A DNA stretch of 64,000 bases from Streptomyces sp. NBC_00237 (GTDB lineage Bacteria; Actinomycetota; Actinomycetes; Streptomycetales; Streptomycetaceae). Position numbers and translations under genes: made by a program. Below are positions 44,299 through 63,933 of this stretch, one piece after another (the first letter of the stretch is position 1; every line of letters starts with the position of its first letter). Under the pieces are notes generated by a model. That model was given only the letters and a program-made list of their open reading frames with translations. It was not told the origin of the DNA and did no database searches. Location: positions 2,908,501-2,972,500 of the forward strand of contig NZ_JAPEMT010000001.1 of the NCBI RefSeq assembly GCF_026342435.1, in the 5' to 3' direction.

Positions 44299-44658
44299 TC
44301 AGCCACTCCAGATGTCGTACAGCCGTACTTCCAGCACGGCGAGCACCACCGCACCCGCCGCCACCGTGATCGAGCCCCACTTGGTCCGCTCCGCGAGCGA
44401 CATGAACCCCGCCGCGGGCACGGCCGCGAACGACCCGACCAAGTACGACACGAAGATGACGTTCCCTTCCGCGGGCTTCTCCCCCCGCGCCAGCTGCACG
44501 ATCCCGACCACCAGCTGGGCCAGGGCGAGGACCGACACCACGGCCATGCCGATGAAGTGCCAGTCCTTGGTGGGCTGGTCGCGGAAGGCGGCGTAACCGC
44601 ACCACGCGGCGAGGGCGAGCGCGGTCACGGCGACCGCGACCGTCAGGGCGTCAAGCAT
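44299..44658 (-). CDS. Small polytopic membrane protein
   Basis: The 119-residue product has about four hydrophobic segments (MLDALTVAVAVTALALAAW, FIGMAVVSVLALAQLVVGIV, FVSYLVGSFAAVPAAGF, ITVAAGAVVLAVLEV). A TACGCT -10-like box seven bases before the ATG suggests a leaderless message; an open upstream frame is then not used. It forms an operon with the next gene; they may make a heteromeric membrane complex, which is inference. Confidence 0.8.
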   Translation of the reverse strand: MLDALTVAVAVTALALAAWCGYAAFRDQPTKDWHFIGMAVVSVLALAQLVVGIVQLARGEKPAEGNVIFVSYLVGSFAAVPAAGFMSLAERTKWGSITVAAGAVVLAVLEVRLYDIWSG

Positions 44659-44783
44659 GGGATGGAGCGTACTGGGCGCTTCCGGACGTCCTGCCCCCGG
44701 ACCCCCACCCCCGCGCCCGGCGTGGCGTTGGCCACACGCCCGTGCCCGCGCACCCTCTGACATCAGGGCGGCGGCCCTTCAGG

Positions 44784-44822
44784 TGTCCACCCCTGGACAT
44801 CATCTGTCCGCTATTCGGACAG
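44784..44822 (+). promoter_or_regulatory. Two TGTCC/GGACA inverted repeats upstream of the metN leader
   Basis: TGTCCA-CCCC-TGGACA (44784-44799) and CTGTCCG-CTATT-CGGACAG (44804-44822) are adjacent and use the same half-site. They look like paired operators for one regulator of the methionine importer. Confidence 0.6.
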
Positions 44823-44862
44823 GAGTCCTTCGCCCGGACACCCGTCTGGTTTACTCGTTCCC

Positions 44863-44949
44863 ATGACCACGACGAGCAGCCGCACCCTTGCGACCGAGGC
44901 GATGATGACGCCCGGTGCTCGTTGTATGTGTCGAATGTGCGACTTCTGA
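44863..44949 (+). CDS. Cys/Met leader peptide of metNIQ
   Basis: A 28-codon ORF (starts MTTTSSRTLATEA, ends ARCMCRMCDF) lies 224 bp before metN. The C-terminus reads Cys-Met-Cys-Arg-Met-Cys, using two TGT codons, which are rare in this genome; also two Met codons at 14-15. A ribosome slowed on Cys or Met codons could control downstream RNA folding, as known for cysteine-rich leader peptides in mycobacteria. Downstream RNA can form GTACGC/GCGTAC, CTCGGCT/AGCCGAG and a GTGCG-GGCGG/CCGCC-CGCAC hairpin (about 45120-45150) close to the metN start. No SAM riboswitch motif was found in this leader. Confidence 0.6.
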   Translation: MTTTSSRTLATEAMMTPGARCMCRMCDF

Positions 44950-45173
44950 GGGCCCCCGCCTGAGCCTCGCGCCCCGAAGCGAGACCCATTCCGGCCGCGC
45001 GTCCGTACGCACCGCGTCCCCGCACCGCGTACACGACCGCGCCGCCGGCCCCCGCGCGCCCTCGGCTCCCTTTCAGCCCGACCGAGCCGAGCTGTGCCGC
45101 GCCCCCGGACACCTGCCCCGTGCGTCCGGCGGAACGAAACCGCCGCGCACTCGACAACAGTGATGGAAACCCT

Positions 45174-46247
45174 GTGATCACCACTACTGGCCTGACCAAG
45201 GTCTACGCCTCGCGCGGCCGAGAGGTCACCGCCCTCGACGGCGTCGACCTGCACGTCCGCGAGGGCGAGGTGTTCGGCGTGATCGGTCAGAGCGGCGCCG
45301 GTAAATCCTCGCTCATCCGCTGCGTCAACCTGCTGGAACGCCCCACCTCCGGCACCGTGACCGTCGACGGCGTCGACCTCACCGCACTCGCCGGACGAGG
45401 CCAGCGCGCCAGCAAGGAACTGCGCGCCGCCCGCTCCCGCATCGGCATGGTCTTCCAGCACTTCAACCTGCTGTCCTCGCGCACCGTGCAGGGCAACATC
45501 GAACTGCCCCTCGAAATCCTCGGCGTCTCCGGCAAGGAGCGCAGCCGCAAGGCCCTCGAACTCCTCGACCTCGTAGGACTGGCCGACAAGGCGAAGTCCT
45601 ACCCCGGTCAGCTCTCCGGCGGTCAGAAGCAGCGCGTCGGCATCGCCCGCGCCCTCGCCGGTGACCCCAAGGTGCTGCTCTCCGACGAGGCGACGAGCGC
45701 GCTCGACCCCGAGACGACCCGCTCGATCCTCCAGCTCCTGCGCGACCTCAACCAGCAGCTCGGCCTGACCGTCCTGCTCATCACGCACGAGATGGACGTC
45801 GTCAAGACGATCTGCGACTCGGCGGCCCTGATGAAGCGCGGACGTGTCGTCGAGACCGGAACCGTCGCGGAACTGCTGGCCACCCCCGGCTCCGAGCTGG
45901 CCTCCGAGCTGTTCCCGGTGACCGGCCACGCGACGGGACCCGGCCGCACCGTCGTCGACGTCACCTTCCAGGGCGAGGCCGCCACCCAGCCGGTCATCTC
46001 GCAGCTCTCCCGCACGTACAACATCGACATCTCGATCCTGGGCGCCGCCATGGACACCGTCGGCGGCAAGCAGATCGGCCGGATGCGGATCGAGCTTCCC
46101 GGCCAGTACGAGGAGAACGTCGTCCCGGTCGGCTTCCTGCGCGAGCAGGGCCTTCAGGTCGACGTCGTCGAGGACGAAGACGACGCCGACGAGCCAGCCG
46201 ACGTACCGGCCCCGATCCCCGCCCTGGCCAAGGAGAGTGCCAAGTGA
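45174..46247 (+). CDS. metN: Methionine ABC transporter ATP-binding protein
   Basis: It is the 357-residue ATPase of the D/L-methionine importer. Walker A GQSGAGKSS, Q-loop VFQHFN, signature LSGGQKQR and Walker B VLLSDEATSALDPE are seen; the C-terminal 100 residues (TVVDVTFQGEAATQPVISQL) form the NIL/ACT domain that binds methionine and inhibits transport. GTG 45174 gives the usual MITTTGLTKVY start. Stop overlaps metI (GTGA). The preceding 500 bases hold the leader described above. Confidence 0.95.
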   Translation: MITTTGLTKVYASRGREVTALDGVDLHVREGEVFGVIGQSGAGKSSLIRCVNLLERPTSGTVTVDGVDLTALAGRGQRASKELRAARSRIGMVFQHFNLLSSRTVQGNIELPLEILGVSGKERSRKALELLDLVGLADKAKSYPGQLSGGQKQRVGIARALAGDPKVLLSDEATSALDPETTRSILQLLRDLNQQLGLTVLLITHEMDVVKTICDSAALMKRGRVVETGTVAELLATPGSELASELFPVTGHATGPGRTVVDVTFQGEAATQPVISQLSRTYNIDISILGAAMDTVGGKQIGRMRIELPGQYEENVVPVGFLREQGLQVDVVEDEDDADEPADVPAPIPALAKESAK

Positions 46248-46912
46248 CCTGGTCAGAGATGCAGCCCCTGCTGGAGCAGGGCATCATCGACACGCTCTAC
46301 ATGGTCCTGTGGGCCACGATCGTCTCCGTACTCGGCGGCCTCCCGCTGGGTCTGCTCCTCGTCCTCACCGACAAGGGCGGTCTGCTCCAGAACACGGTCG
46401 TGAACAAGGTCGTCGGCGTCATCGTCAACATCGGCCGCTCGCTGCCCTTCATCGTGCTGCTGATCGCGCTGATCCCCTTCACGACCTTCGTGGTCGGTAC
46501 GTTCATCGGCCCCAGCGCCATGGTCGTACCGCTGGCCATCGGCGCCATCCCCTTCTTCGCCCGGCTTGTCGAGACGGCCGTCCGCGAGGTCGACCACGGG
46601 CTGGTCGAAGCCGCCCAGGCGATGGGCGGCGGCGTGCCGACGGTCGTCTTCAAGGTGCTCCTCCCGCAGGCCCTGCCGACCCTGATCTCCGCCGTCACCA
46701 CCACGGTGATCGTCCTCGTCGGCTACTCGGCGATGGCCGGAGCGGTCGGCGGCGGCGGACTCGGCAGCGTGGCCGTCAACTACGGCTACAACCGCTTCGA
46801 GACCAACTTCATGCTCATCACCGTCGTGGTGCTGGTCGCCCTGGTCACGGTCGTCCAGCTGATCGGCGACGGCGCCGTGCGCCTGCTCGCCCGCCGGGGC
46901 CGCACCGCCTAG
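46244..46912 (+). CDS. metI: Methionine ABC transporter permease
   Basis: The 222-residue product has five transmembrane helices and the EAA loop (VEAAQAMGGGVPTVVFKVLLPQALPT within its span), with VGYSAMAGAVGGGGLGSVAV, typical of MetI. GTG start overlaps the metN stop. Confidence 0.95.
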   Translation: MTWSEMQPLLEQGIIDTLYMVLWATIVSVLGGLPLGLLLVLTDKGGLLQNTVVNKVVGVIVNIGRSLPFIVLLIALIPFTTFVVGTFIGPSAMVVPLAIGAIPFFARLVETAVREVDHGLVEAAQAMGGGVPTVVFKVLLPQALPTLISAVTTTVIVLVGYSAMAGAVGGGGLGSVAVNYGYNRFETNFMLITVVVLVALVTVVQLIGDGAVRLLARRGRTA

Positions 46913-47002: not shown

Positions 47003-47866
47003 GTGCGTAAGAACATCAAGATCTCCCTCGCCGCCGCCGCTGTCACCGCCCTCGCCCTGGGCGTCTCCGCCTGCGGCACGGCCTCCGACCCGGCCGCCGC
47101 CAAGAAGGACGAGGGCGGCAAGGTCGACGCGTCCAAGGCGCTCGTCGTCGCCGCGTCCCCGACGCCGCACGCCGACATCCTCAACTTCGTCCAGAAGAAC
47201 CTGGCGGAGAAGGCCGGACTGAAGCTGACGGTGAAGGAGTTCTCGGACTACGTCCTGCCGAACACCGCCACCCAGTCCGGCGAGGTCGACGCCAACTTCT
47301 TCCAGCACAAGCCCTACCTCGACGACTTCAACAAGAAGCGCGGCACGGACATCGTCCCGGTCGTCAACGTCGAGCTGGAGCCGCTGGCCCTGTACTCCAA
47401 GAAGGTCAAGGACCTCAAGGAGCTGAAGTCCGGCCAGACCGTCGCCGTCCCCAACGACACCACCAACGAGGGCCGCGCCCTCCACCTGCTCGCCGACAAC
47501 GGCGTCATCGTCCTCAAGGACGGCGTGGGCACCGACGCCAAGCTGTCCGACATCAAGGACAAGAAGGGCCTGGAGTTCAAGGAGCTGGAGGCCGCCACGC
47601 TGCCCCGCGCCCTGGACCAGGTCGACGCCGCCGTCATCAACGGCAACTACGCCATCCAGGCCAAGCTGTCCCCCGCCAAGGACGCCCTCGCCTCCGAGAA
47701 GGCCGACGGCAACCCGTACGCGAACTTCCTCGCCGTCAAGAAGGGCAACGAGAAGGACCCGCGCGTCGAGAAGCTCGCCAAGCTCCTCAACTCCGACGAG
47801 GTCAAGCAGTACATCGAGAAGAAGTACACCGGCCTGGTCGTCCCGTCCTTCGGCGCGGTCAAGTAA
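47003..47866 (+). CDS. metQ: Methionine-binding lipoprotein
   Basis: It is the 287-residue substrate-binding protein. A lipoprotein signal ends LGVSAC with Cys24 lipidated. Motifs of the MetQ/NlpA family: SPTPHADILNFV, FSDYVLPNTATQSGEVDANFFQHKPYL region, VPNDTTNEGRALHLL and VDAAVINGNYAIQA. GTG 47003 follows AAAGAGG. It is last in metNIQ. Confidence 0.95.
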   Translation: MRKNIKISLAAAAVTALALGVSACGTASDPAAAKKDEGGKVDASKALVVAASPTPHADILNFVQKNLAEKAGLKLTVKEFSDYVLPNTATQSGEVDANFFQHKPYLDDFNKKRGTDIVPVVNVELEPLALYSKKVKDLKELKSGQTVAVPNDTTNEGRALHLLADNGVIVLKDGVGTDAKLSDIKDKKGLEFKELEAATLPRALDQVDAAVINGNYAIQAKLSPAKDALASEKADGNPYANFLAVKKGNEKDPRVEKLAKLLNSDEVKQYIEKKYTGLVVPSFGAVK

Positions 47867-63440: not shown

Positions 63441-63512
63441 TGCGCGATACTGGGATTGAACCAGTGACCTCTTCCGTGTCAGGGAAGCGCTCTCCCGCTG
63501 AGCTAATCGCGC
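63441..63512 (-). tRNA. tRNA-Val (GAC)
   Basis: Minus strand GCGCGATTAGCTCAGCGGGA...; acceptor GCGCGAT/ATCGCGC, anticodon loop CTGACAC with GAC, T-arm GGTTCAATC. No encoded CCA. Identical copies at 63561-63632 and 63674-63745. Confidence 0.97.
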
Positions 63513-63560
63513 GGGACGGTCCTTGCGAACCTGATCTTGCACCGTACTGCTGGTGCTGCG

Positions 63561-63632
63561 TGCGCGATACTGGGATTGAACCAGTGACCTCTTCCGTGTC
63601 AGGGAAGCGCTCTCCCGCTGAGCTAATCGCGC
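63561..63632 (-). tRNA. tRNA-Val (GAC), second copy
   Basis: Same sequence as the first copy, 120 bp away; the bases before it (GGGACGGTCC on the plus strand) are also repeated. Confidence 0.97.
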
Positions 63633-63673
63633 GGGACGGTCCAAGCGGACCGTATCTGTTCAGTTGTTCTGCG

Positions 63674-63745
63674 TGCGCGATACTGGGATTGAACCAGTGA
63701 CCTCTTCCGTGTCAGGGAAGCGCTCTCCCGCTGAGCTAATCGCGC
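63674..63745 (-). tRNA. tRNA-Val (GAC), third copy
   Basis: Same sequence; spacer to the second copy is 41 bp and to tRNA-Cys 4 bp. Confidence 0.97.
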
Positions 63746-63749
63746 TTGG

Positions 63750-63820
63750 AGGTGGAGACGGGATTTGAACCCGTGTAGACGGCTTTGCAGGCCGTTGCCT
63801 CGCCTCTCGGCCACTCCACC
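63750..63820 (-). tRNA. tRNA-Cys (GCA)
   Basis: Minus strand GGTGGAGTGGCCGAGAGGCG...; acceptor GGTGGAG/CTCCACC, anticodon loop CTGCAAA (GCA), T-arm GGTTCAAAT. Confidence 0.97.
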
Positions 63821-63860
63821 AGGAGTGCAGTAAGGGTATCGGGATGATCCCCCACTATCG

Positions 63861-63933
<73 letters not shown>

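Follow-up and report, generated by a model that had tools for sequence, protein, structure and literature searches.

The metNIQ operon of Streptomyces sp. NBC_00237 is preceded by a short leader open reading frame (ORF) which, with a probability that we put at about 60%, is translated from a leaderless message and reports the supply of cysteine, possibly together with that of methionine, to the genes of the methionine importer. The window analysed here is the whole stretch of 64,000 nucleotides around this locus; within it, the element with its promoter spans about 44804-45176 and the conserved RNA starts at the ATG of the leader (Table 1). The leader probably serves to sense how well the cell is supplied with sulfur amino acids; almost all Streptomyces genomes examined have it, and it most likely controls the uptake of these amino acids in antibiotic producers.

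Table 1. Features of the metNIQ leader element and its operon, in window positions.
Feature	Position	Strand	Basis or remark
Palindrome CTGTCCGCTATTCGGACAG	44804-44822		Sequence; centred near -50 from the predicted start
-10-like hexamer TTTACT	44850-44855	+	7 nt before the ATG; leaderless-type promoter
Leader ORF	44863-44949	+	Sequence; 154/155 Streptomyces metN loci; frame kept in all 32 loci selected with the RNA model
Helix P1, 5' strand (codons 3-5)	44869-44877	+	Predicted fold; pairs with 44917-44925
Hairpin P1a (44881-44884 with 44889-44892)	44881-44892	+	Two pairs with two-sided changes, 7 cells
Hairpin P2 (44893-44896, 44898-44901 with 44909-44916; bulged A 44897)	44893-44916	+	Two two-sided pairs, 4 cells
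Helix P1, 3' strand (codons 19-21, including Cys21 TGT)	44917-44925	+	Predicted fold
Codons 23-27, TGTCGAATGTGCG	44929-44941	+	Possible long-range arm to 45144-45156; minimum-energy fold of the window
Post-stop hairpin P3, CUCGC-GCCCCGAA-GCGAG	44966-44983	+	One two-sided pair, 2 cells
Hairpin H3 (45120-45124, 45127-45132 with 45140-45150)	45120-45150	+	Just before the metN ribosome-binding region
CGCGCACTCGACA block	45144-45156	+	Before the metN Shine-Dalgarno region; arms of the possible long-range helix largely conserved
metN	45174-46247	+	TIGR02314 best match; GTG start (VITTTGLTKV) placed by comparison with relatives
metI	46244-46912	+	NF008049 best match
metQ (lipoprotein)	47003-47866	+	NF008285/TIGR00363 best matches; GTG 47003 start chosen by reading

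The leader ORF comprises 28 codons (MTTTSSRTLATEAMMTPGARCMCRMCDF) and its product terminates with CMCRMCDF, with TGT ATG TGT CGA ATG TGC near the end of the frame and 224 nt between the leader stop codon and the metN start. An initial annotation, made from the sequence alone, had described the same ORF with CMCRMC near its end at this distance from metN, as the sequence confirms; its statement that the motif uses TGT codons applies to two of the three Cys codons, the third being TGC. An ORF that is found again at 154 of 155 Streptomyces metN loci is not a chance frame. It is probably translated. Downstream, the assignments of MetN, MetI and MetQ correspond to best NCBIfam matches, all of which lie under the curated cut-offs. 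In Streptomyces coelicolor, oxidative stress raises metN, metI and metQ 5.2, 3.5 and 2.3 fold, and cysteine genes rise along with them (PMC4991794).

A -10-like hexamer is located 6-8 nt upstream of the leader ATG in 150 of 152 relatives, and the sigma-70 pattern was absent from positions 44500-45300 in a simple scan. A transcription start downstream of 44863 would have spoken against the initial annotation; in Streptomyces lividans, the RNA-seq data reported in the sections of PMC8079986 on this leader place a leaderless start at the leader itself. The palindrome further upstream may be a regulator site, and a strict TGTCCG-N4-6-CGGACA, beginning 57-59 nt before the ATG, is present in 56 of 152 Streptomyces metN promoters.

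The comparison was based on 162 metN loci: the window, 140 further genomes of the genus and 21 named actinobacterial loci used out of 80. A metN match was found in 143 of 150 genus genomes, the window's own among them; two genomes (G050 and G008) in which metN is partial or at a contig edge and a second copy in G002 were left out. An ORF pattern picked a leader in 152 of the 162 loci. Among the ten loci outside the pattern, L216 and L218 have a leader on reading, the two Kitasatospora loci (L014, L015) carry a diverged form and the Actinomadura locus (L017) has a leader 373 nt before metN; L209, truncated by a contig end, is the one Streptomyces locus of 155 for which no leader was called, and no leader was seen before metN in four loci of other actinobacterial genera (L019, L053, L067 and L076). 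The counts given here are not independent, because the sequences are related and some species are present twice.

Searches with two RNA models extended this distribution. Model R1 matched 28 genomes of the genus and one other among 296 genomes of the class, with none of the genus among the 20 non-matches listed, and all 28 genus matches begin at most about 375 nt before metN. In the family of that other genome, R1 matched 4 of 80 genomes, three of them new, and the four best matches precede metN. Among 394 genomes, model R2, which spans codon 19 to hairpin P3, gave strong matches in 39 of the genus and in 3 from outside it, with one genus genome among the non-matches listed; one of the three strong matches from outside the genus, in G467 (L257), had not been part of the model. 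Of ten weaker R2 matches (E 5e-4 to 0.01), the five that were read have no leader and are noise. In the window's own genome, the metN copy alone is a strong R2 match, the next having E 0.3; R2, the 18-nt hairpin pattern and the palindrome each have one full-quality match there, the others having 2-3 mismatches or E>=0.3 (for the palindrome, one exact copy and two further sites with 3 mismatches). The predicted core from codons 24-25 to the post-stop hairpin crosses families, and the matches checked precede metN.

No R1 match at E<=0.01 was detected in 28 metN upstream regions of other genera, 7 of which contain an ORF passing a loose Cys criterion; for L285, only 49 nt were available before metN. 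In L267, an other-genus locus without an R1 match, an ORF that is rich in Cys and Met but differs from the leader (MTPQGRVMCRAARMCGTPCACAMGGMPSMR) is located 189 nt before metN and may be an independent leader. Another short ORF, ending with GRCRMCR, is located 283 nt before an other-genus metN, also without an R1 match (L266).

The reading frame of the leader is kept. In all 32 loci chosen by R1 (28 from the genus, window included, and 4 others), i.e. selected by the RNA model and not by an ORF, the hexamer CGAATG is in frame with the start codon, the distances of 63-96 nt all being divisible by three, and 15 nt separate its first base from the stop codon that follows. The same holds for 151 of the 152 leaders chosen by ORF, with start-to-CGAATG distances of 69-96 nt that are always multiples of three, L212 having no such motif. 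The spacer from the stop codon to P3 falls in all three frames (91, 30 and 29 of 150), and of 119 leaders, 81 use TGA as the stop codon and 38 use TAG. The invariance of CGAATG in alignment A2 is partly a matter of choice, the sequences being cut at that motif.

The codons were compared in the leaders of 28 codons (119 loci, 88 distinct sequences). Codons 10-12 are GCG ACC GAG and codon 5 is AGC in all 119, codon 18 is GGT in 117, codon 24 is CGA in 116 and codon 25 is ATG in 116; at codons 6, 8, 9, 14 and 15 the amino acid is often altered. Compared with the consensus, the 88 distinct leaders show 437 codon changes, 386 nonsynonymous and 51 synonymous (the possible single changes being 179 and 59, respectively), and 183, 284 and 122 changes at codon positions 1, 2 and 3, with the third position the least changed. 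Judged from these alignments, the substitution pattern is the opposite of protein constraint, the nucleotides being better conserved than the peptide, and this nucleotide conservation is likely due to RNA. Since the ORF overlaps the RNA junction and its changes are mostly nonsynonymous, much of the conservation of Cys and Met in Streptomyces may itself reflect RNA pairing; for the Cys codons, the predominance of nonsynonymous changes (386/437) and the replacement of Cys26 by Arg in 35 of the 119 leaders suggest that they may be kept by pairing.

The folding of the region is stronger than that of shuffled sequences, with z -4.3 for 44863-45200 (0/100 shuffles as good) and z -2.5 for 44863-44991 (3/200 shuffles as good). 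A hairpin (H3) lies beside the metN ribosome-binding region; the initial annotation had noted several hairpins between leader and metN, one of them next to the metN start. The helices P1, P1a, P2 and P3 were examined on 61 leaders chosen out of 91 diverse ones, using a structure taken from the window's own fold and therefore leaning towards that one sequence. In these alignments, 95.8% of cells are paired compared with 94.8% in shuffles, and two-sided changes affect 6 pairs and 14 cells compared with 1.7 and 2.1; none of 500 shuffles reaches any of the three values (paired share, two-sided pairs or two-sided cells). Controls with slid partners gave 25-46% paired cells and at most 9 two-sided cells, one of them also reaching 6 two-sided pairs and another 5, and the number of further pair types (18) was no higher than in shuffles, being reached in 119 of 500. 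The main helix of P2 is paired in 99.8% of cells and is also present in the RNAalifold consensus, which drew other pairs and retained none of P1, P1a and P3. For P1, there is one two-sided cell, and two pairs are broken in 10 and 11 of the 61 leaders, so that its support is weak. The arms of P3 become CUCAC/GUGAG in L258. Covariation thus partly supports the predicted RNA junction. Besides these helices, a GGGC after the leader stop could, on reading of 44950-44983 and its relatives, pair with GCCC in the P3 loop as a pseudoknot.

We infer stalling, cue and output from the sequences, and the element could work as follows. Transcription would start at the leader ATG, and a ribosome would load at once and run through RNA that would otherwise fold into the P1/P1a/P2 junction. 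When Cys-tRNA (or Met-tRNA) is short, the ribosome would stall in the Cys/Met cluster, which lies 3-8 codons ahead of the stop codon; when the supply is sufficient, it would end at the stop codon, facing hairpin P3. A stalled ribosome would allow the synthesis or translation of the metNIQ message and an unstalled one its shut-off. Some form of ribosome-mediated control is highly probable, and ribosome-mediated attenuation by Cys or Met, as advanced in the initial annotation, is the best reading of the locus. The conditions that would have refuted it turned out mostly in its favour; the codon conservation in Streptomyces is confounded by RNA pairing as an argument for it. More tentatively, the element could be a ribosome-gated switch in which the sequence of the ORF is set by RNA folding and not by the peptide, and in which the charging of cysteine tRNA, and not that of methionine tRNA, controls a methionine importer; in this reading, the frame, the Cys codons near the end and the core from codons 24-25 to P3 are kept across two actinobacterial families.

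Alternatively, the RNA itself could bind a metabolite as a riboswitch, with the ORF as a by-product; in favour of this are nucleotides that are strongly conserved, a predicted junction of three helices for which there is some covariation, and an amino acid sequence that is not under selection. However, the unpaired nucleotides of the junction are mostly variable (identity 0.74 in the P1a loop, 0.71 in the P2 loop with one insertion column left out, and 0.73 in the linker, compared with 0.94-0.99 in the stems), the bulged A alone being fixed, and a ligand-binding RNA is not favoured because loops and linker vary. Moreover, the frame is kept in every locus chosen by the RNA model and the Cys-rich ends are kept in diverged leaders, which makes this explanation improbable. 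A known riboswitch family was rejected as well: in line with the initial annotation, which had seen no SAM-riboswitch motif, no Rfam family matches near the site at the gathering score, the five gathering matches of the window being tRNAs. Under permissive settings, the 441 bases of 44760-45200 yielded three matches, all below gathering and none of them a sulfur riboswitch; the best of them, the snoRNA sR1 on the leader (E 0.0034, 20.8 bits against 45), was taken as chance. Elsewhere in the window, five tRNA genes are clustered on the minus strand (63441-63933). Finally, the CxCxxC peptide could act by nascent-peptide arrest or by sensing metals or thiols, and on reading alone its Cys spacing does resemble a metal site; the peptide varies freely, however, and its Cys spacing is variable (CMCRMC, CMCRRMC, CCRMC, CPCRCRMC and CMCRMR). 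Arrest was rejected on the grounds that the peptide is not conserved as such, and we hold this whole class of explanations to be very improbable.

Within ribosome-mediated control, either cysteine or methionine could be the cue. Over the final 14 codons of the 152 leaders, Cys occurs at least twice in 148 and at least once in all, and Met, nearly as constant, at least twice in 134 and at least once in 151. In the window, TGT21 lies in helix P1, and TGT23 and TGC26 lie in the possible long-range helix, in which the replacement of Cys26 by Arg turns a U-G into a C-G pair. Because the Cys codons sit in proposed RNA helices, codon conservation in Streptomyces cannot decide between Cys and Met. The Cys/Met region, whose conservation the initial annotation had proposed to compare, is conserved in Streptomyces and also in leaders from other genera, seven of which were read (L014, L015, L017, L250, L257, L258 and L259); these end with 2-5 Cys and 1-3 Met, e.g. 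RMCGRRMCRR, RMCCRRMCDR, RCCRMCAF, GCTCRCRMCSH and CPCRCRMCDR. Their nucleotides have diverged and yet Cys is kept, which would mildly favour Cys as the cue. On balance, cysteine is probably the main cue.

The competing possibility is that methionine, or methionine with cysteine, and not cysteine alone, is sensed, so that an importer would respond to what it takes up. By family, the genes downstream encode a methionine importer, and the S. lividans counterpart of the leader, metL, is labelled methionine-dependent in the passages of PMC8079986 that list it. Codon 22 is ATG in 100 of 119 leaders and lies outside every proposed helix, and in the possible long-range helix the A of the nearly constant ATG25 (116/119) faces a C and is unpaired. 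Against this, divergent leaders are richer in Cys than in Met (5 Cys and 1 Met in L257, 4 and 1 in L249, 4 and 0 in L212, 3 and 1 in L220), and the most constant Met is encoded within CGAATG, a hexamer that hardly varies at the nucleotide level (116/119 for codon 24 and for codon 25); CGAATG is present in all seven leaders from other genera, though model matching and the anchor favour loci that have it. We regard this alternative as rather unlikely. The published label of the element is methionine; our comparison leans to cysteine and, by naming the helices in which mutations would be informative, opens the question to a direct test in S. lividans or S. coelicolor. It also carries a warning, since the conservation of codons in a leader ORF can stem from RNA pairing.

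As for the output, two predicted structures near metN have bases in common, hairpin H3 and the outer half of a possible long-range helix between the leader and the metN ribosome-binding region, with covariation in H3 alone. An H3 arm GCAC is preceded by GTGC in 129 of 135 cases and an arm GTAC by GTAC in 10 of 11, the test asking whether the tetramer occurs within 40 nt ahead of the arm and not whether the two pair, and 6 of 152 loci having another arm; the GTAC/GTAC cases are probably mostly close relatives. The long-range helix would allow translational control of the type known from the LEU element, with the control codons pairing to the stretch that precedes the metN Shine-Dalgarno sequence until a stalled ribosome releases it. 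It is part of the window's lowest-energy fold (UGUCGA-A-UGUGCG with CGCGCA-C-UCGACA), both arms are largely conserved in Streptomyces, and the CGCGCACTCGACA block pairs on average better than a control stretch (-27 vs -20 kcal/mol). In simulations on the 119 leaders, a ribosome mask on codon 23 removes the helix, frees UCGACA from 0.29 to 0.59 and raises the local pairing of the H3 arm from 0.55 to 0.71. However, exposure from the Shine-Dalgarno to the start codon stays at 0.42 on average under the mask (of 119 leaders, 31 show an increase and 28 a decrease), and the arms do not co-evolve, matched arms being no better than swapped ones in four sets (p 0.27, 0.25, 0.31 and 0.33; a control stretch further upstream gave p 0.07). 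Moreover, at least 5 long-range pairs are present in the lowest-energy fold of 76 of 152 loci and at least 8 in 24 of 152, and the UCGACA block was not seen in the seven loci of other genera. Because there is no co-evolution and masking did not expose the metN Shine-Dalgarno, the helix stays a candidate and not a proven switch, and control of ribosome binding to metN, by this pairing or otherwise, is a possible but doubtful output.

We prefer, at slightly less than even odds, premature termination in the C-rich spacer, perhaps dependent on Rho, as the output. An intrinsic terminator was rejected, with no terminator-like site in 44500-45300 and a run of five T in one of 152 relatives. In the region corresponding to 44984-45119, the spacers of the relatives contain 45% C and 29% G, with C exceeding G in all 147 of the 152 spacers that could be delimited (5 could not), compared with 38% C and 37% G upstream of the promoter; for the first 300 nt of metN, the values are 39% C and 32% G (42 loci). 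This C-rich composition without T runs fits Rho-dependent termination, making 44984-45119 its candidate region.

The initial annotation had presented a mixed Cys/Met leader for metNIQ as new; in fact, the same element has been published in S. lividans TK24 as metL (SLIV_29928, MSTTSDRTPATEATTTPGARCMCRRMCAF), located before the metNIQ operon (PMC8079986). As described in the parts of that paper devoted to metL, it has several hairpins but no typical Rho-independent terminator, is listed as methionine-dependent and is said to hold several methionines and threonines. It is the same ORF in the same place, i.e. an orthologue; its peptide differs from that of the window by six substitutions and one codon, and is identical to the peptides of L109 and L112. 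The study concerns one genome, and its passages on metL contain no cross-species comparison, RNA model or cysteine reading. No other paper was recognised as describing the leader in the literature searched, in which the locus tag SLIV_29928 appeared in PMC8079986 only. To metL, the present comparison of sequences would add a predicted structure for the RNA, a distinction between constraint on the RNA and constraint on the codons, and the proposed cysteine reading.

Related control elements are known. The portions of PMC1262725 dealing with actinobacterial leaders report no conserved structures before methionine operons; they describe Cys leader peptides of cys/cbs operons in Mycobacterium, Propionibacterium and Bifidobacterium, which share with the element described here Cys codons near the stop and the lack of an obvious terminator (Rho was proposed there), but have cys/cbs genes downstream instead of metNIQ. 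The LEU element upstream of leuA, described in the same portions (PMC1262725), also combines a leader ORF with control codons able to pair downstream; it uses Leu codons and a pseudoknot and pairs with the Shine-Dalgarno box itself, whereas the pairing proposed here precedes the Shine-Dalgarno region and has no co-evolution support. For cysteine genes of mycobacteria, PMC13236596 speaks of control by translation attenuation. Transcription attenuators of the trp type share a leader ORF with clustered control codons, but have an intrinsic terminator before the structural gene, no candidate for which was found here in 44500-45300. Canestrari and colleagues reportedly described in 2020 polycysteine leaderless short ORFs in mycobacteria with sulfur genes downstream. 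Short ORFs with a leaderless start (predicted here), Cys codons and sulfur genes downstream are common to both systems; the mycobacterial ORFs contain an adjacent Cys run, whereas here the Cys codons are interspersed with Arg and Met, with CC in some relatives only, and the ORF overlaps a conserved RNA junction and has metNIQ as its target.
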